From assembly GCA_013697785.1 (NCBI GenBank), contig JACCWE010000073.1, positions 1-32,338 on the forward strand: 32,338 nucleotides of DNA. Direction: 5' to 3'. The position numbers and the translations under genes were made by a program. The notes under the pieces are model-generated. The model was not told the DNA's origin. It searched no databases and saw only the letters and a program-made list of their open reading frames with translations. This DNA comes from Gemmatimonadaceae bacterium. GTDB taxonomy: Bacteria > Gemmatimonadota > Gemmatimonadetes > Gemmatimonadales > Gemmatimonadaceae. How positions within the stretch are numbered: position 1 is the first letter of the stretch; the number at the start of each line of letters is the position of its first letter. Below are positions 1 through 8,084 of this stretch, piece after piece.

Positions 1-30
1 GCCGACATCCGAACATGCGAGTGGAGAATC

Positions 31-660
31 ATGAGCAAGGTATTCGTCAACATTGGACTCAGCCTCGACGGCTTCATGGCACCGGAAGGAATGACCATGG
101 AGAATTACGAGTATATGAATTGGGGAGCTAAGTGGGGTGCGATGATGGCCTGGATCGTCAACCAACAGTACTTCCGCGAGAACCTCAAGCTCGGACCAGG
201 GGGAGAGACGGGCCCGGTCAATGATCTGATTCGCAACACCACCGAGCGCACCGGCGCCAGCATAATGGGCAAGCGAATGTTCGACCAAGGCGAGATCGCC
301 TGGCCAGAGGATGCTCCGTTTCACACACCGGTATACGTTCTTACCCATGAGAAACGCGAACCCTGGGTGCGTCCCGGTGGAACGACATTTTACTTCATCA
401 ACGACGGGCCGGAGCGTGCCCTGGAGTTGGCGCGGGAAGCCGCTGGCAGTCGTGATATTCGTCTGGCCGGCGGAGCGGATCTGATCCAGCAGTACCTGAA
501 CCTGGGTGCCGTCGACGAGCTGGAAATCGCGTTGGCGCCCGTGTTGTTCGGCGGCGGGCGTCGCCTCTTCGAGAACGTACGCGAGCCCGGGCCGCACTTT
601 CGCATTGACAGGGTTCTCGATGGTCCAGCCGCAACACACCTGCGCTATGTACGTCAGTAA
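31..660 (+). CDS. Dihydrofolate-reductase-fold (RibD C-terminal-like) reductase
   Basis: The 209-residue protein begins with the family hallmark (V-F-V-N-I-G-L-S-L-D-G-F-M-A), the first strand of the RibD_C/DHFR fold. It ends with a glycine-rich nucleotide-binding turn (R-L-A-G-G-A-D-L, about residues 142-149) and an A-P-V-L-F-G-G-G-R-R-L-F segment. Such proteins are NAD(P)H-dependent reductases; the true substrate of this small stand-alone type is generally unknown, so folate or flavin-pathway activity should not be assumed. The ATG has a purine-rich GTGGAGA stretch just upstream. It is followed six bases after its stop by an attC-like structure (666-729), so it may be integron-cassette cargo; DHFR-fold genes are common there. 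A second member of the family lies at 2433-2981 but is only distantly similar. Confidence 0.9.
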   Translation: MSKVFVNIGLSLDGFMAPEGMTMENYEYMNWGAKWGAMMAWIVNQQYFRENLKLGPGGETGPVNDLIRNTTERTGASIMGKRMFDQGEIAWPEDAPFHTPVYVLTHEKREPWVRPGGTTFYFINDGPERALELAREAAGSRDIRLAGGADLIQQYLNLGAVDELEIALAPVLFGGGRRLFENVREPGPHFRIDRVLDGPAATHLRYVRQ

Positions 661-665
661 ATTCT

Positions 666-729
666 GTCTGACAACCGGTTGCAGCGGACGGTCCGCTGCG
701 CGTCCCGGCGTTGAGCTGGAACGCTAGAC
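666..729 (+). other. Candidate integron attC recombination site
   Basis: The 64-bp element has the ordered parts of an attC site. It begins with an R''-like box GTCTGAC (666-672; consensus RYYYAAC, one mismatch) and ends with an R'-like box GCTAGAC (723-729; consensus GTTRRRY, one mismatch). Inside, CCGGTT pairs with AGCTGG (L boxes, two wobble pairs), and CAGCGGA pairs perfectly with TCCGCTG as a central stem. The spacing and purine/pyrimidine pattern resemble the classic aadA-type attC. Orientation is right for a cassette whose gene is 31-660. No integrase and no second convincing attC are seen in the window, so it may be a lone or decayed site. Confidence 0.55.
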
Positions 730-796
730 GCAGTGTGAATGCCCACGCCGGGCATTCCGGTCGAGAAAAAGAGGAGATGATCTGACTGTCAAGCGG

Positions 797-1219
797 ATGG
801 ACAACGTAGGCATCGTGGTAGAATCCCTCGATGGCGCCATCTCATTTTTCGCCGAGCTTGGACTGAAACTCGAAGGGCGAGCCACGATCGACGGAGAGTG
901 GGCCGGGCGCGTTACCGGACTCGGGTCCCAGCACGTCGAGATCGCCATGCTGGTCACCCCGGACGGTCACAGTCGGCTCGAGCTCTCGCGATTCCTCAGC
1001 CCGCCCGTCGTCGCCGATCACCGGCACGCCCCGGTGAACGCACTCGGCTACCTACGCGTCATGTTCACTGTGGATGACATCGACGATACGCTCGCCAGGC
1101 TTCGCAAGCGCGGCGCGCAGCTCGTCGGCGAAGTAGTTCAATACGTAGAGGCGTATCGCCTCTGCTACATTCGCGGTCCCGAGGGACTTCTCATCGGGCT
1201 CGCCGAGGAGCTCGGATAA
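797..1219 (+). CDS. VOC-superfamily (glyoxalase/bleomycin-resistance fold) protein
   Basis: The 140-residue protein has two paired beta-alpha-beta-beta-beta modules. The first opens D-N-V-G-I-V-V-E-S-L-D and runs into A-I-S-F-F-A-E-L-G-L. The second opens L-G-Y-L-R-V-M-F-T-V-D-D-I-D and ends Y-I-R-G-P-E-G-L-L-I-G-L-A-E. This is the usual single-chain VOC layout, but no specific lyase, dioxygenase or resistance function can be assigned. The first ATG is at 797, yet the ribosome site GAGGAG (771-776) is too far from it. It lies 5 bases from an in-frame CTG at 782, which would add L-T-V-K-R, an N-terminus I recall as common in this family. A CTG start is therefore plausible. The gene lies 52-67 bp beyond the attC-like site. 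Confidence 0.88.
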   Translation: MDNVGIVVESLDGAISFFAELGLKLEGRATIDGEWAGRVTGLGSQHVEIAMLVTPDGHSRLELSRFLSPPVVADHRHAPVNALGYLRVMFTVDDIDDTLARLRKRGAQLVGEVVQYVEAYRLCYIRGPEGLLIGLAEELG

Positions 1220-1260
1220 CGAGGGTTCGATGTGGCAAGCGGGTAAGGCTAACCGCGTCA

Positions 1261-1289
1261 CGAGTGCAACCTGACGTTCGTTGCACTCG
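1261..1289. repeat. Perfect inverted repeat (10-bp arms, 9-base loop)
   Basis: CGAGTGCAAC (1261-1270) is followed after nine bases by its exact reverse complement GTTGCACTCG (1280-1289). There is no T-run on either side, so it is not a textbook intrinsic terminator. It lies 41 bp after the VOC gene and 111 bp before the DUF1801 fragment, and may end the VOC transcript or mark an old recombination junction. Confidence 0.6.
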
Positions 1290-1400
1290 ACGAGTGATCG
1301 GAGGACTGCTCTCCTCGCTCGCGTCGTCGACTCACGTGCAAGTGAAGCTGGCCATGGAGCGGATCTCGCGCGAACCACTGCGCACGTCTCGGAGGACTTC

Positions 1401-1598
1401 GTGACTGCGAAAGCCGATAGCACGAAGCGTACGCACGAGGCTGAGCTTCGGTCCTACATCGACAGGTTGGATCCGAAGGATCAGAAGCTTGCTCGATCAG
1501 TCCGCGCTGCGGTACGGAGGAGATTCCCGACCGCCAACGAGCTGGCGTACGACTACAAGACCTTCTTCGTCATCGCCTATTCGCCGACGGAAAAGTGA
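1401..1598 (+). pseudogene. Truncated DUF1801 (YdhG-like) protein
   Basis: A GTG at 1401 with GGAGG five bases upstream (1391-1395) begins a 65-residue product. Its middle (Y-I-D-R-L-D-P-K-D-Q-K-L, then A-V-R-R-R-F-P-T-A-N-E-L-A-Y-D-Y-K-T-F-F-V-I-A-Y-S-P) matches the N-terminal half of the DUF1801 fold, where a conserved aromatic strand precedes the C-terminal sheet. The family is usually about 110-150 residues; here a TGA follows directly after S-P-T-E-K. I see no continuation of the domain in any forward frame of the next 100 bases, so the 3' half has been lost rather than merely frameshifted. Function of the intact family is poorly known. Confidence 0.55.
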
Positions 1599-1701
1599 CG
1601 GCTGCGTTGCCGACGCAACATCGGCATGCATCTGGCGACGCTTTGCACGAGCAGCCCATGCTGAGCGTCAGGCGCTCGCCCACTGCCCTGATGGAGGACG
1701 C

Positions 1702-2343
1702 ATGGACGTGTCAGGCCACTGGCAAAGGATGTATTCGCAGAAGGCGCCGGAGGAAGTGAGTTGGTTTCAGGAAATTCCGTCGCGATCGGCGGCCTTGGTC
1801 CAACAGGTCGCGCCCGCACGTGCGGCACGTATCCTCGATGTCGGCGGCGGCGCGTCGACGCTTGTCGACACTCTGCTGGCGTCGGGGTACACCGCGCTCA
1901 CGGTGCTCGATCTCGCGCCCGCCGCGCTCGCGCACGCGCAGGCGCGCCTCGGTGGCGCAGCCAGGACGGTGACCTGGGTCGCCGATGACATTCTCACAGT
2001 GAAGCTGCCGCCCGCGAGCGTCGACGTGTGGCACGATCGCGCTGTATTTCATTTTCTCACACAACCGGCGGAGCGCGCCGCGTATCTGGCGCAAGTGCGC
2101 CGAGTGCTGCGGCCCGGTGGCTACGCCGTGATCGCGACGTTCGCGGAGGACGGCCCCACGCGTTGCAGCGGGCTCGAAGTCGTGCGCTATTCCGAGAACG
2201 CCCTCCATGCCGTCTTCGGTGACGGGTACGTTTTGGAACACAGCGAGCGCGAAATGCACACCACGCCGAGCGGGGCCGCGCAGGCTTTCACATATTGCGT
2301 CTGCCGCTGGTCACCCGCCGTCACCGTGCAGCCCGTCGGCTAG
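1702..2343 (+). CDS. Class I SAM-dependent methyltransferase
   Basis: The 213-residue protein carries SAM-binding motif I at residues 44-50 (I-L-D-V-G-G-G-A-S), followed by an acidic end of strand 2 (V-L-D-L-A) and motif II/III region W-V-A-D-D-I-L. The segment V-D-V-W-H-D-R-A-V-F-H-F-L and a post-motif V-L-R-P-G-G-Y strand complete a Rossmann-like methyltransferase core. The ATG at 1702 follows GGAGG (1694-1698) and is chosen over upstream in-frame codons, which belong to non-homologous sequence. The substrate is not apparent; the N-terminal W-x-x-M-Y and V-S-W-F-Q pattern is seen in small-molecule methyltransferases with DUF-type names. It stands alone in the mosaic part of the window. Confidence 0.88.
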   Translation: MDVSGHWQRMYSQKAPEEVSWFQEIPSRSAALVQQVAPARAARILDVGGGASTLVDTLLASGYTALTVLDLAPAALAHAQARLGGAARTVTWVADDILTVKLPPASVDVWHDRAVFHFLTQPAERAAYLAQVRRVLRPGGYAVIATFAEDGPTRCSGLEVVRYSENALHAVFGDGYVLEHSEREMHTTPSGAAQAFTYCVCRWSPAVTVQPVG

Positions 2344-2432
2344 CCGTGCGTTGTTGTCAGCGGCGTCAGGGATTGCCGCTCGTCCTCAGAGCATCGGTTT
2401 GCAGCCTCCACCATTAGCGATACCGTTACGTA

Positions 2433-2981
2433 ATGCGACCACTTCGGTATTCAATCAACGTCACATTGGACGGATGCTGCGATCATCGTGCGATTATCGC
2501 AGACGAAGACTTGCATCGTCACGCGATCGAGAACCTCGAACGCGCCGATGCTCTCCTCTTTGGACGGGTGACGTACGAAATGATGGAGGCAGGGTGGCGG
2601 CGACCGACGCCAACGGGAGCGACGCCTGAGTGGATGGAACCCTTCGCGCGAACGATCGACGCGGCAAAAAAGTACGTCGTGTCGAGCACCCTGGACCAGG
2701 TCGATTGGAACGCGGAGCTCCTGCGCGGGGATCTCGGAGAGGCCGTTCAGCAGCTGAAACGTGCGCCGGGGAAGGGACTCCTCGTGGGAGGCGTGACGCT
2801 CCCGCTGGCGTTGGCGGAGCTGGGATTGATCGATGAGTACGAGATCGTGGTGCACCCCAGGCTGGCGGGCCATGGGCCGACGCTGTTCGCAGGGCTATCG
2901 AAGTGGGTCGACTTGAAGCTGGAGAGCCGGCTGGAGTTCGCCTCGGGCGCGGTGGCGATGCGGTATTCGCCGGGAAGTTAG
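2433..2981 (+). CDS. Dihydrofolate-reductase-fold (RibD C-terminal-like) reductase
   Basis: The 182-residue protein starts with R-Y-S-I-N-V-T-L-D-G, the DHFR/RibD_C first strand. It continues with A-D-A-L-L-F-G-R-V-T-Y-E-M-M (strand and helix with conserved G-R-x-T-Y), and G-L-L-V-G-G-V-T-L near residues 126-134, the dinucleotide-binding turn. The C-terminal sheet (E-Y-E-I-V-V-H-P, then G-P-T-L-F-A-G-L) is complete. Family members are NAD(P)H-dependent reductases with mostly unknown substrates. The ATG lacks a strong ribosome site. It is the last plus-strand gene before the convergent lipoprotein gene, with a terminator serving the latter between them. Confidence 0.9.
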   Translation: MRPLRYSINVTLDGCCDHRAIIADEDLHRHAIENLERADALLFGRVTYEMMEAGWRRPTPTGATPEWMEPFARTIDAAKKYVVSSTLDQVDWNAELLRGDLGEAVQQLKRAPGKGLLVGGVTLPLALAELGLIDEYEIVVHPRLAGHGPTLFAGLSKWVDLKLESRLEFASGAVAMRYSPGS

Positions 2982-3085
2982 CGAACGCGCGAACGCATTC
3001 ACGACGCCTCGGTTCTCACGGTATTGTCAGAGTTCTCAGGAAAGAGGGATGCGCGTCTTCGAGAGCATCGACGTATCTGAAAACG

Positions 3086-3117
3086 GAAAATTCCCCCGGG
3101 CATCGACCCCGAGGGAA
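3086..3117 (-). terminator. Intrinsic terminator for the beta-propeller lipoprotein gene
   Basis: On the minus strand the arms TTCCCTCGGG and CCCGGGGGAA pair over ten positions with one G-T wobble around a seven-base loop, followed directly by TTTTCC. It begins 18 bp past the lipoprotein stop codon. The loop and T-run orientation fit termination of the minus-strand gene only. Confidence 0.7.
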
Positions 3118-3135
3118 CGGTGTTTTCTCCCGCGA

Positions 3136-4485
3136 CTACTTATCGAAGCCCGTTAGGCCAATGTATGCCTGCTGCATGTTCGTCTTGCCCACGGAGGATG
3201 GGACGGCGAACGGCGAGCCGGCAAGTTCGGTGAGCGCGCCATTGGCGGCCACACTGAAAATTGCCACCGAGTGAGTCTTGAACGCACCGGCGACATACAG
3301 ATATCCATCTGCCGACTGGTACGGCTCTTTCGAGTCCTGTGGCGGTGCGGCGCGCCGGGTAATGAAGTTGGGACTGAGTGACACAGTCAGGCGATCATCG
3401 CTCCCAATATCAAATGTGCTGACGTTGTTCCCGGTAAAACTGACCGTGAACAGCTTCGTGCGATCATTGCTAACGAGCGTCCAGCATGCTTCGTCATTGC
3501 GCTCGGCAGTGGCAAAATTTTGCACCTTCGCACCGGTCGTGCCGTCGTGCACGGTGACGCTGTTATTCTCCTTGGACGAATGGAGATTGAAATTCGCCAT
3601 GTAGATGAACTGGTTGTTTGGACTCCACGAGATACCAATGTTCCCCGACACACCGACTTCCTCATACATACCCGTTTGCGTGAGCGCTCCGCTCGTAAAG
3701 TTGTAGACGTACAAGCGACCTGGTTTCTGCAATGTGAGATCTGCATCGGGCGTATCGAAGTGCGGAACTCCCCAGGTAGAGGCGATCAACTTGCTGCCGT
3801 CGCCGTTGAACACGACAGTTGTTGGCCCTCCATTGGTGCCATCGCTGTACGTCACGCCAACGCGATTAAATGTCAGCTGACCCGTTGATTGATCGAATGT
3901 AAATACTGCGATGTTTCGAGCCGCGGATGACATCACGGCGCCGTGAGCTTCCGGTGGCGATTTCTGGTAGTTCGGATTTGCAAACTGGTTCGCCACGGCT
4001 ACCCATGTCGTACCTCCAATCGTCGCCGAGGCAATGGAGACACTTCGCTCGCCGTGCGAGTCCATGTTGTCCATTTCGGGTGTCGCGCTGTTCTGGTCAA
4101 TGCGTACCAGACTCCCATTGCCGCGATTGATTCGAAACACGGAAACGCTGCCGTTGACAGGATTGGAGCCGGCGTTCACGACCAACAGGTAATCGCCGAT
4201 AATCCGTACACCGCCTTGTGTATCGAAGTCTCCATCTGCCGCATCTCCCGCCGCGCCCGTCAAATACGGCGAACCTGGAAGTTCGACCAACGAACCGTCG
4301 CTGCGCCGGCCAAGGGCCACTACACCATTGCCGCTGTTATCGTTGGTGGAGGTGTACAGATACCCTGCATTCTGATCACCCGCGCCCGGGCCAGATGGAT
4401 CGCTACCGCACCCGCCAATCAGCGTTGCAGTCAGGAAAAGGATGAAAAGATAAATTGGAGACCGCAGCCGCAAGTATTTTTTCAT
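3136..4485 (-). CDS. Beta-propeller (lactonase-like) lipoprotein
   Basis: This is a 449-residue exported lipoprotein. The N-terminus has a basic start, a hydrophobic stretch (residues 11-24) and a lipobox I-G-G-C with Cys26. The body consists of repeated blades with motifs such as D-G-S-L-V-E-L-P-G-S-P-Y near the start and N-G-A-L-T-E-L-A-G-S-P-F near the end, as in 6-phosphogluconolactonase/YVTN-type seven-bladed propellers (PF10282-like). No enzymatic residues can be assigned; it may be a binding or scaffold protein at the outer membrane. A relative with the same blade motif lies at 23478-24785. Base composition is visibly less GC-rich than neighbours, which suggests recent acquisition or relaxed selection. 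A possible promoter lies near 4687-4714. Confidence 0.85.
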   Translation of the reverse strand: MKKYLRLRSPIYLFILFLTATLIGGCGSDPSGPGAGDQNAGYLYTSTNDNSGNGVVALGRRSDGSLVELPGSPYLTGAAGDAADGDFDTQGGVRIIGDYLLVVNAGSNPVNGSVSVFRINRGNGSLVRIDQNSATPEMDNMDSHGERSVSIASATIGGTTWVAVANQFANPNYQKSPPEAHGAVMSSAARNIAVFTFDQSTGQLTFNRVGVTYSDGTNGGPTTVVFNGDGSKLIASTWGVPHFDTPDADLTLQKPGRLYVYNFTSGALTQTGMYEEVGVSGNIGISWSPNNQFIYMANFNLHSSKENNSVTVHDGTTGAKVQNFATAERNDEACWTLVSNDRTKLFTVSFTGNNVSTFDIGSDDRLTVSLSPNFITRRAAPPQDSKEPYQSADGYLYVAGAFKTHSVAIFSVAANGALTELAGSPFAVPSSVGKTNMQQAYIGLTGFDK

Positions 4486-4535
4486 GATGTCATGATCCAG
4501 TGAAAGGAGGAGTGTGCGAGGCGGCCGTCACGGCG

Positions 4536-4643
4536 TCACCCATAGGCTGCGAAAATCCGAGCCAAGGTACCGTCGTCGGCTAGTGCGCGTATGACGGCAT
4601 CCAGACTGTCCCGCTGACGATTTGCTCGCGCGTGTCCGTTCCT
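4536..4643 (-). pseudogene. Possible C-terminal remnant of a family 3 solute-binding protein
   Basis: The minus-strand frame ends R-D-S-L-D-A-V-I-R-A-L and A-D-D-G-T-L-A-R-I-F-A-A-Y-G before TGA. This pattern (helix, then L-x-x-D-G-T-x-x-x-I-x-x-x-Y-G at the very C-terminus) is typical of periplasmic amino-acid-binding proteins of the SBP_bac_3 family. Only about 35 residues remain and nothing upstream continues the domain, so this is a tentative reading of a fragment. Confidence 0.3.
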
Positions 4644-4686
4644 GCGGGCGCCGGCAACACTGCACGTCATGAGCCAAGCTGTTGCA

Positions 4687-4714
4687 CTTATACCGTAACA
4701 GATTTCTCACAAAA
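4687..4714 (-). promoter_or_regulatory. Possible sigma-70-type promoter for the propeller lipoprotein
   Basis: On the minus strand TTTTGT (4709-4714) is separated by 16 bases from TATAAG (4687-4692), in a locally AT-rich patch about 200 bp before the lipoprotein ATG. Directly downstream of the -10 is TGCAACAG (4679-4686), which also occurs in the shared motif at 24885 and 27691. The -35 match is weak. Confidence 0.35.
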
Positions 4715-5051
4715 CCCGAATTGTAACGAAATGCGCGGCCTGGCCCTCGAACGCCCATCGCGATGTGCGACGCACACCGCTGCACCGGTTTCCGTGCGGC
4801 GTCTACTTTCGAAGCGGGAGCCCCGTGGCGAGATGCCGCGCCCGGTGGCGACATCCGACTCGCGCGCGCTGGCTTGCTGCGCGCCTGCTGACATCTGAGG
4901 AACTTGACGCGTTGAGCGCGGCGATGACCTAGAGCCTCTACCGTACGCCAACGATGACTAGCGATCGCGAATCTTCGCGTGAAGCAGCACTCGGCGAATA
5001 CGGCAGCGACACCCAAAACATCAAGCGCCGCCCGCCGCAAGTCGCCCTGCA

Positions 5052-5540
5052 CTATTTCATCGACTTCACATGAGCCACGAGCTGATCGACGGCGATCTCG
5101 GTGCCCTGCTGCCAACCCGACGCTTTGTTTTTTTCGAGGTCAGCTTCATCACGGTGCAGCGCCGTGAACACATAGCGGGTTCCTGTTCCCACGCTTTCCA
5201 TCGTGACGATCGCGGTGATCGGAATGTCGTCAAAGATTGCCGGACGATAGCCGGGAAATAACATGGAGGTCCAGACGAGTCGCTCCATCGGAATAACGTC
5301 CAGGAAACAGCCGACGTTGGGAAAGTCCTGACCGTTTCCCGTTGCGATGTCGATGCTGAAGATGCCGCCCGGTCGCACGTCCATTTCGGCTTTCGACACA
5401 CGCCCCCACGCCTTGGGCATGTACCACTCCTTGAGATGCTCCGGTTTGGTCAACGCTTCCCAGACGAGGCGCGCCGGAGCGTCGATGAACCGTTCGATGA
5501 GGAAATCGAGTTTCGGATTGACGGCGAATTGCCTGCTCAT
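5052..5540 (-). CDS. SRPBCC / AHSA1-family (START-like fold) protein
   Basis: The 162-residue protein has the AHSA1 pattern: F-L-I-E-R-F-I-D-A-P-A-R-L-V-W-E-A-L-T and the following K-E-W-Y-M-P, then D-V-R-P-G-G-I-F and a sheet with E-R-L-V-W-T. The fold forms a hydrophobic cavity for lipids or small ligands. The ATG at 5540 overlaps the stop of the ArsR gene by four bases (ATGA), so the two are translationally coupled; an upstream in-frame start at 5606 would run deep into arsR and is rejected. ArsR-AHSA1 pairs are very widespread, and the regulator usually controls the pair; the ligand is not known. The C-terminus is complete. Confidence 0.92.
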   Translation of the reverse strand: MSRQFAVNPKLDFLIERFIDAPARLVWEALTKPEHLKEWYMPKAWGRVSKAEMDVRPGGIFSIDIATGNGQDFPNVGCFLDVIPMERLVWTSMLFPGYRPAIFDDIPITAIVTMESVGTGTRYVFTALHRDEADLEKNKASGWQQGTEIAVDQLVAHVKSMK

Positions 5541-5878
5541 GATTCTGACTCCTTCTCCTTGAGTTGTTTGACGAATGTGTCGAACCGGTCCAGTCGAGCT
5601 TCCCACAGCTCACGACGCGCGGTCAGCCAGTCTTCAACGACCTTGAACCGATCGGGTGCGATCTCATAAGTGCGTACCCGCCCTCGCTTCTTCGACTTCA
5701 CAAGTCGGCTCTGCTCGAGCACGGTCAGGTGCTGCACGAACGAGGGAAGCTTCATGTCGAACGGTGCTGCCAGCTCACTGACTGTGGCTGGGCCGAAAGA
5801 CAGCTGCTCCAGAACTTTCCGCCGAGTCGAATTGGACAACGCATGAAAAACATCGTCAGCGACTGCGGATCGAACCAT
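5537..5878 (-). CDS. ArsR/SmtB-family winged-helix regulator
   Basis: The 113-residue protein is an ArsR-type winged helix. It opens V-F-H-A-L-S-N-S-T-R-R-K-V-L-E-Q-L (helix 1-2) and continues T-V-S-E-L-A-A-P-F-D-M and S-F-V-Q-H-L-T-V-L-E (recognition helix), then a wing with K-K-R-G-R-V-R-T-Y-E. No metal-binding C-x-C pair is present, so it belongs to the metal-independent group that pairs with SRPBCC proteins. It is the first gene of a two-gene minus-strand operon and overlaps the next gene by four bases. A strong promoter and a near-palindromic operator lie just upstream, which argues for autoregulation. Confidence 0.93.
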   Translation of the reverse strand: MVRSAVADDVFHALSNSTRRKVLEQLSFGPATVSELAAPFDMKLPSFVQHLTVLEQSRLVKSKKRGRVRTYEIAPDRFKVVEDWLTARRELWEARLDRFDTFVKQLKEKESES

Positions 5879-5921
5879 CTCGGCACCATTTGGTTGGTTG
5901 CGTTACCCGATCTGTCGGGAA

Positions 5922-5950
5922 ATTCTACCACTGGATAACACTAAGGTCAA
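5922..5950 (-). promoter_or_regulatory. Sigma-70-type promoter of the arsR-SRPBCC operon
   Basis: On the minus strand TTGACC (5945-5950) and TAGAAT (5922-5927) are separated by exactly 17 bases, each one base from consensus. The -10 lies 43 bp before the arsR ATG. This is the best canonical promoter I see in the window. Confidence 0.7.
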
Positions 5951-5959
5951 TACCTAAGT
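5940..5959. promoter_or_regulatory. Probable ArsR operator overlapping the -35
   Basis: Read on the minus strand, ACTTAGGT and ACCTTAGT flank a four-base spacer; the arms match an inverted repeat at seven of eight positions. The site covers the -35 hexamer, the placement expected of a repressor such as the ArsR protein encoded immediately downstream. Binding is inferred. Confidence 0.5.
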
Positions 5960-6142
5960 ATACTTTTTATATTCACAGCCGCTCGCGGACCAATAACACG
6001 GAATTCCGCGAACGACTCGAAGGTCGCTGGATCCTGGCGCGCGATGCCCCCACGTTATTACCCGTGGGAGCACTGCGTCATTTGATTGGGCTCGCTTGCA
6101 GGTGAGCCGGCTCGCCAACTCGCACAACGGGAGCGGTGCGCA

Positions 6143-7135: not shown

Positions 7136-8084
7136 TTCTGCCGATGAGCGCGTCGTACGGCATACCGTCCGCGGCGGCGGCACGAGCGAACTCGCCGCTC
7201 TCCTCGAGATAGCAATTCGGATTGACCTCGATGACATACGCCTCGCCCGACTCGGATACGCGCATGTCGACGCGTGCATAGTCTCGCAAGCGAAGCGCGT
7301 GAAAGGCATCGAGCGCCGTCTTCCGCAACAGCTCGTCGAGCTCGGGTGGCAGATCATTCGGTACGAAGGTGCGCGTGCCCGCGTACTCTTCGCCTTTCTC
7401 GTCGCCGTCCTCGCCCCACTTGGCCGCCCAACTGGCAATCCTCGGCTTATCCGTCGGGAATCCGGTGAAATCCATCTCCATTGGCGGAAGCGCGCGCGCG
7501 TCGGCGTTCCCAATCACGCCGACGTAAAACTCACGCCCGTCGATGAACTCCTCGATGAGAGGAGGTTGATGGAAGTTGCCTTGTACCGCTCCCATTTGCG
7601 CGAGCAGCTCTTGCACATTGTGGACGACGGAGGCGTGGGTGATCCCGATCGATGCATCCTCCTGCGGAGGCTTGACGATCAAGGGAAATTTCAGATCTCC
7701 CGCCCACTCCACATCACCGCGATGCACGGTTGCGAATTCCGGCGATCGTACGCCGTGAAACGACAGCACCTTCTTGCTCAACGCCTTGTCGCCGGCGAGC
7801 ATGAGGCCCGCCGGACTCGACCCGGTGTAGCGCAGATCCAGGAGATTCAGGAGCGCGGCGACGTTCGACTCGAGCGCACTCTTCCCGTCGAACGCTTCGG
7901 CCAGATTCACAACCAGCGCCGGCTCCGCCGCTCGCAGCTCCGTCGCCAGCGCGACGACATCGGGCATCACGATCTGGAAACCGATCTCGTGGCCGGCTCG
8001 CTCGAGTACTCCAGCGATCTGTGCCAGCACCGGATCGACGGGCGGCTCCACCGCGTCCGCCGAGTGCAGGATGACGATCTTCAT
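7101..8084 (-). CDS. ATP-grasp ligase related to D-alanine-D-alanine ligase
   Basis: The 327-residue protein has the D-Ala-D-Ala-ligase arrangement: an N-terminal Rossmann-like half (M-K-I-V-I-L-H-S-A-D), a central F-P-L-I-V-K-P-P near residues 133-140 with S-I-G-I, and E-E-F-I-D-G-R-E-F at 178-186. The magnesium-binding end is D-Y-A-R-V-D (268-273) and I-E-V-N-P-N (285-290). It would join a carboxylate to an amine with ATP hydrolysis. The N-terminal substrate region departs from cell-wall Ddl, and there are no mur genes nearby, so a non-wall dipeptide or peptide substrate is plausible. Its ATG overlaps the stop of the upstream metallopeptidase by four bases, which implies co-expression and probably a shared task. 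Confidence 0.88.
   Translation of the reverse strand: MKIVILHSADAVEPPVDPVLAQIAGVLERAGHEIGFQIVMPDVVALATELRAAEPALVVNLAEAFDGKSALESNVAALLNLLDLRYTGSSPAGLMLAGDKALSKKVLSFHGVRSPEFATVHRGDVEWAGDLKFPLIVKPPQEDASIGITHASVVHNVQELLAQMGAVQGNFHQPPLIEEFIDGREFYVGVIGNADARALPPMEMDFTGFPTDKPRIASWAAKWGEDGDEKGEEYAGTRTFVPNDLPPELDELLRKTALDAFHALRLRDYARVDMRVSESGEAYVIEVNPNCYLEESGEFARAAAADGMPYDALIGRIIELASARYAR

Follow-up and report, generated by a model that had tools for sequence, protein, structure and literature searches.

Does the 64-nt element that follows a dihydrofolate reductase (DHFR)-family gene at positions 666–729 constitute an integron recombination site (attC), and if so, does it belong to a cassette array or to a single inserted cassette? 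The window, that is the whole stretch of DNA analysed, comprises 32,338 nucleotides from a Gemmatimonadaceae bacterium and is the entire contig C117 of a 3.81 Mb assembly in 169 contigs; the contig has no sequence further to the left. We conclude, with a probability of about 93%, that 666–729 is a real but worn attC terminating a DHFR-family gene cassette. Its identity as an attC rests decisively on comparison: gene and attC recur together in distant bacteria, with integron cut points at both ends. The features are as follows, in window coordinates unless a contig is named.

C13 (L062) 8064–8070: left recombination box GCGACGC, three mismatches to GTTRRRY (C13 sequence)
1–30, + strand: cassette leader; conservation begins at the left box, whose last two bases are window positions 1–2
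31–660, + strand: RibD_C/dihydrofolate-reductase-family gene, coding part of the attC-ended cassette (Pfam RibD_C; relatives 80–90% identical)
1–127, + strand: overlap, the same sequence as the 127 bases that end contig C13, which carries a cassette array (sequence match)
666–729, + strand: degenerate attC site, 64 nt (models R1, 22 bits, and R2, 63.5 bits; orthologous sites in other genomes)
666–672, + strand: R'' box GTCTGAC, one mismatch to RYYYAAC (sequence; register from the ortholog alignment)
675–687, + strand: L'' arm CCGGTTGCAGCGG (CCGGTT-G-CAGCGG), extrahelical G at 681 (sequence; ortholog alignment and R2 register)
708–719, + strand: L' arm GCGTTGAGCTGG, also given as GGCGTTGAGCTGG, pairing with L'' via wobbles (sequence; same register)
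723–729, + strand: R' box GCTAGAC, differing from GTTRRRY at one core base; also the start of the next cassette (sequence; G090 comparison)
730–1219, + strand: VOC-family gene (ORF 797–1219) with its leader, a cassette in genome G090 (Pfam Glyoxalase; G090 comparison)
1489–2343: methyltransferase, ORF from TTG (Pfam)
2433–2981: second RibD_C protein (Pfam)

The consensus of the attC boxes is RYYYAAC for R'' and GTTRRRY for R', and the GTT core is the exchange point of recombination. An earlier reading of this DNA made from the sequence alone (the sequence-only reading) had placed an attC-like site directly behind a gene of the DHFR fold, and the site was recovered at exactly these coordinates on the + strand, beginning 5 nt past the stop codon of the first RibD_C gene. 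The order that it had described for the R, L and stem elements was likewise seen, with R'', spacer, L'', centre, L', spacer and R' following one another on the + strand. In the register of the ortholog alignment 18 of the 20 attC pairs are standard, four of them G–T wobbles; the two mismatched pairs (6/59 and 22/43 of the 64-nt register) are the same two that the R2 alignment marks. The inner L''/L' stem has 12 standard pairs out of 13 and leaves G 681 unpaired. R'' and R' are each one base off the consensus, the change in R' turning the core from GTT into GCT, which is found at one other of the 17 aligned sites, from G080.

Covariance models were used to score the site. For the general model, R1, candidate attCs were collected by applying an R''/R' motif and stem rules to the loci then collected, with the window and C13 excluded. 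These rules gave 29 matches, 27 of which were distinct. Loci of this genome contributed none, and a single shuffled copy of the sequence likewise yielded none. Removal of 2 doubtful sites and of 7 longer than 120 nt left 18 sites from other genomes of the order. The best R1 match in the window was exactly 666–729 on the + strand (22 bits, E 0.0015 with filters off). The next reached 12.5 bits, and all remaining window matches were rejected as background. In a further 64 kb from this genome, no match other than an attC on contig C123 (47.9 bits) exceeded 17.2 bits. The support that R1 lends to the site is modest and its margin small. The second model, R2, was built from 14 orthologous or similar sites. 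Its alignment, A3, is A2 without the window, L114 and L157; A2 holds 17 sites, namely 14 of the 28 DHFR-linked attCs introduced below (those without length changes), the window and two others. R2 scored the window site at 63.5 bits (E 4.3e-15) against 14 bits for the next match in 76.5 kb searched, a value that reports homology to its orthologous sites and not attC nature by itself. Under neither model does the element score as background, and the covariance-model check that had been proposed for it came out in its favour.

The comparison with other bacteria started from the gene. A scan of species genomes returned 249 relatives, of which the 80 best were kept as DHFR loci. These 80 are 80–90% identical and, going by their record titles, fall into six named phyla (Pseudomonadota, 57; Acidobacteriota, 8; Chloroflexota, 5; Gemmatimonadota, 4; Planctomycetota, 4; Ignavibacteriota, 1), with one further locus from an unnamed bacterium. 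In 28 of the 80 kept loci the 3' flank matched the attC above all 1600 shuffled flanks, some of these matches being partial; the window itself scored 40, and the shuffled maximum was 18. The 28 loci belong to Pseudomonadota, Acidobacteriota, Chloroflexota, Gemmatimonadota, Ignavibacteriota and one unnamed bacterium, those outside Pseudomonadota being metagenome bins by title, for which a binning error is possible in single cases. The match of the Ignavibacteriota locus (L160) is confined to the first 30 bases of the attC, and the attC of Chloroflexota locus L137 is rather different. When the best few candidates per genome were scored, five of the family's 99 genomes (G053, G080 twice, G012, G092 and G070) also matched the attC with no DHFR gene attached.

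The borders of the conserved unit could be read from the same loci. Upstream of the gene, conservation begins at a GTTAGGC box 35 nt 5' of the ATG and is near random before it (unselected profile of 79 of the 80 loci and the window). Leader identity was analysed in 78 of the 80 loci, 45 of which retain the 35-nt leader. Mean pairwise identity among these 45 stands at 81% over the leader and drops to 65% over the box and to 27% over the 35 nt that precede it, and the GTTRRRY box is exact in 17 and carries one mismatch in 15 more (32 of 45 with at most one mismatch); the 45 rows were picked by identity over 35 nt including the box, a choice that favours the box figures and not the upstream figure. 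At the right border, analysed over 15 rows (the 14 DHFR-linked rows of A2 and the window), identity declines from 84% in columns 1–57 to 75% in columns 58–60 and 41% in columns 61–64, and is 29% in the next 20 bases. Columns 58–60 read GTT in 11 of the 15 rows. In the ortholog loci, GTT boxes bound the unit of gene and attC at both ends, which is what integron recombination leaves.

How this unit came to lie in such different bacteria is a separate matter. The gene tree, built from 81 rows of which two consist mostly of gaps, has little resolution (4 of 77 inner branches starred) and intermixes the phyla (17 changes, the least possible being 6); it adds little beyond the 80–90% identity between phyla. 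In the plasmid collection there was no close copy, the 15 records found all showing 60–80% identity and none covering 80% of the query. Viral contigs yielded a single relative, at 50%. For 20 of the 80 DHFR loci the source genome was searched for an integrase: 8 had one over the cut-off and 12 had none over it, G298 and G306 among the latter showing partial matches of 152–229 bits. We give even odds to the proposal that the DHFR-like cassette with its own 64-nt attC has reached at least five phyla (Pseudomonadota, Acidobacteriota, Chloroflexota, Gemmatimonadota and Ignavibacteriota) through integron-type recombination, often entering integrase-free genomes. If this is true, its copies would document, in nature, how cassettes insert at ordinary chromosomal sites and how the attC decays afterwards.

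Two further forms of the 3' flank were observed among the loci. Thiobacillus thioparus (L082:2572–2593) has a 22-nt palindrome, GCCTAACAACCGGTTGTTAGGC, 3' of the DHFR gene, as if an attC had collapsed to its outer boxes. Five Geothrix isolates (L131, L132, L134, L135 and L143) have kept the DHFR gene and part of the leader; GGGCGGCCTAAC follows the stop codon, and the remaining attC is gone.

On the right-hand side of the site, the neighbours had been taken for typical small cassette genes, namely VOC, a truncated DUF1801 gene and a methyltransferase. Pfam supported the names of the VOC gene (Glyoxalase; a cassette in G090) and of the methyltransferase. The supposed truncated DUF1801 gene had no Pfam match at E 0.01, which leaves its name unconfirmed. 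The VOC gene and its leader are matched in G090 from window position 722 onward, precisely where a 56.1-bit attC ends. Since the G090 match starts directly at an attC, the R' box at 723–729 is the left end of the VOC cassette too. The VOC match begins at 726–743 in G028, G064 and G041; in the remaining genomes it does not start until the gene itself, at 771–783. An attC belonging to the VOC gene itself was not recognisable in the window (R1, nothing further above 12.5 bits). Flanking genes that are contiguous and conserved in relatives would speak against a recombination site, and here the gene order varies: in G090 the VOC gene comes before the DHFR gene, the two being separated by two more attCs, and in G064 several hundred extra bases lie between them. 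G093 does count on the opposing side, as it keeps the order of DHFR, VOC, the 1402–1598 stretch and second DHFR, with extra bases between DHFR and VOC and a degenerate site after the DHFR gene. Past the cassette-like block, the window encodes a beta-propeller (lactonase-like) protein (3136–4485, − strand; Pfam) and an AHSA1-domain gene with an ArsR-type regulator (5052–5878, − strand), near which R1 gave no match above 12.5 bits.

The left-hand side of the window leads to another contig. No other place in the assembly was found for the 127-base overlap with C13 (8195 bp), and between its small genes C13 carries seven attC matches, each scoring 20.7 bits or more (R1). A search of the whole genome with R1 (E up to 1; 150 of 5396 first-look candidates scored) gave nine matches, comprising these seven, one on C123 and the window site. 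Given the unique overlap with this attC array, the array lies to the left of the window if the overlap is a true join, as we infer from the sequence match; C13:7856 and window position 729 would then be about 0.94 kb apart. C13 itself opens in an IS3-like element, where it has 127, 126 and 123 bases in common with the starts of C21, C65 and C112, and this shared start probably explains the assembly break at the left end of C13. The two exact 127-base overlaps would fit contigs cut at branch points of the assembly graph with k = 127. The IS3-like element occupies L062:1–1310 and contains an rve integrase core.

Pfam assigns to C13 two toxin–antitoxin pairs (BrnT/BrnA, and HigB with a helix-turn-helix partner), DUF5990, an FAD oxidoreductase and a VOC protein; a SnoaL match stayed below the Pfam cut-off. 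PMC11023631 describes toxin–antitoxin cassettes in the array of Vibrio cholerae. Five of the C13 attCs are 66–88% identical to one another. The window attC is only 50–54% identical to those of C13 and C123, and for this reason it probably arrived with its cassette. We read the window cassette as continuing the C13 array to the right, with an attC of another lineage. The C13-type attC on C123 stands alone, far inside the contig (C123:42698–42795; L170:6699–6796), is 95% identical to C13:1391–1487, and is preceded by a small gene that starts near a GTTAGCC box; it may mark the chromosomal insertion of one cassette.

The assembly was then searched for an enzyme that could act on these sites. With TIGR02249 no integron integrase exceeded the cut-off in the assembly, which has gaps, and an integrase from the same genus used as query gave partial matches only (best, 53% over 59 aa). 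Tyrosine recombinases on C129 and C63 were rejected as integron integrases, being below the cut-off; they may be housekeeping XerC/XerD types. No intI was found beside the array in this assembly, as a complete integron would have it. Across the order, 131 of 288 genomes carry an integron integrase over the NCBIfam cut-off, apparently a high proportion (this order alone was counted). An integrase-less array, or CALIN, requires two or more attCs spaced by under 4 kb (PMC9668308). C13 holds such a cluster on its own, and 666–729 belongs to one only if C13 adjoins. The sequence-only reading had offered two possibilities for the site, a remnant or the edge of a cassette array situated further left, and both descriptions apply: the C13 array overlaps the window by 127 bases, no integrase was found, and the boxes are worn.

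The known mechanism indicates what would be expected of such a site. The bottom strand, once single-stranded, would form a hairpin via R''/R' and L''/L' pairing, in line with the bottom-strand recombination of attC treated in PMC8946536. An integron integrase would bind this hairpin and exchange strands between the G and TT of the R' box, and the exchange would insert or excise the unit of leader, gene and attC. Because GTT is the exchange point and R' here has GCT, little or no recombination is expected, which suggests a loss of activity. This copy of the cassette would probably be immobile or weakly mobile, and an integrase from elsewhere might still use it. In the arrangement that we propose, the DHFR cassette would sit at the right edge of an array that extends into C13, has no detectable integrase and has decayed boxes at its edge; 666–729 is probably the inert edge of a CALIN.

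The array could instead be a live sedentary integron whose integrase falls into an assembly gap. In the assembly its left end breaks off at the IS3-like start that C13 has in common with three other contigs; two genomes of the same genus (G077 and G032) are among those with integrases over the cut-off; and the mutual similarity of the five C13 attCs is of the kind seen in sedentary arrays. Against this, completeness is given as 100% and still no integrase reaches the cut-off, and the boxes around the DHFR cassette are worn. We consider a live integron unlikely, at odds of about one to three, and favour the inert edge. A single cassette at a non-integron (attG-type) place, and not at the edge of an array, is improbable. 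Such an insertion would be in keeping with the one significant attC in the window, with the lone attC on C123 of the same genome and with the DHFR genes of the 12 genomes (of 20 tested) without an over-cut-off integrase, including the two with partial matches, but the unique overlap joins the window to C13, whose attCs reach to about 1 kb from the site, and the next gene, VOC, is itself a cassette in G090.

Folding and covariation contribute little to these distinctions. Over the 17 aligned sites four pairs of the attC structure changed on both sides, a score that 147 of 500 shuffles equalled or exceeded, and the wobble pairs that had been called compensating are better described as tolerated changes. 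On the same sites, a local two-hairpin structure exceeded all 500 shuffles in covariation score, with 76.8% of cells paired versus 82.9% for the attC structure. As the attC covariation lies within the shuffles and the local-hairpin control above all of them, none of our claims rests on covariation. The minimum-energy DNA fold of the + strand also consists of two local hairpins and not of the attC stem (z −2.35, 4 of 200 shuffles folding equally well); single-strand folding is on its own weak evidence for an attC. The local hairpins and their covariation would suit a transcription terminator or another RNA hairpin kept for expression of the DHFR gene and not for recombination, but this is very improbable, as Rfam had no match in window 1–6000 at E up to 1, the element is present without the DHFR gene in five other genomes, and neither the fading of conservation at the GTT core on the right nor the GTTRRRY box at the left would be explained.

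We return to the worn attC at the probable edge of an array and to its place among described systems. Gemmatimonadota are listed among the integron-bearing phyla in PMC8618304, where routes of CALIN formation are also discussed, and archaeal attCs 95–100% identical to bacterial ones, the latter in five phyla, are reported in PMC9668308. Models of attC by taxon exist (PMC8352920), the term gemmatimonad being absent from the main text of that paper. Literature searches with the word combinations of Gemmatimonadetes, integron and attC, and of 'dihydrofolate reductase family protein', gene cassette and attC, found no paper for either combination in the library covered. Integrons and integrase-less arrays are known kinds, and the wide spread of the DHFR cassette is the more interesting lead. 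It is useful in that one gene family is paired with one attC type across phyla and its GTT borders can be read from alignments. The loci offer a natural data set on how far cassettes travel, how often they land outside integrons and how fast an unused attC decays.

The site at 666–729 resembles the integron attC (59-base element) in its R''-L''-centre-L'-R' order, in the extrahelical base of its 5' arm, in its sense orientation just after a gene and in belonging to a unit bounded by GTT boxes. It differs in the GCT core of its R' box and in one change in R''. As in CALINs, several attCs follow one another at distances below 4 kb and an integrase was not found, but here the cluster appears only once C13 is placed beside the window, which by itself has one site. 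Like the solitary attG-site cassettes (Loot et al. 2024, as presented in PMC12444791), some copies of the DHFR gene lie in genomes without an over-cut-off integrase; unlike those cassettes, the one in this genome is adjoined by an array.
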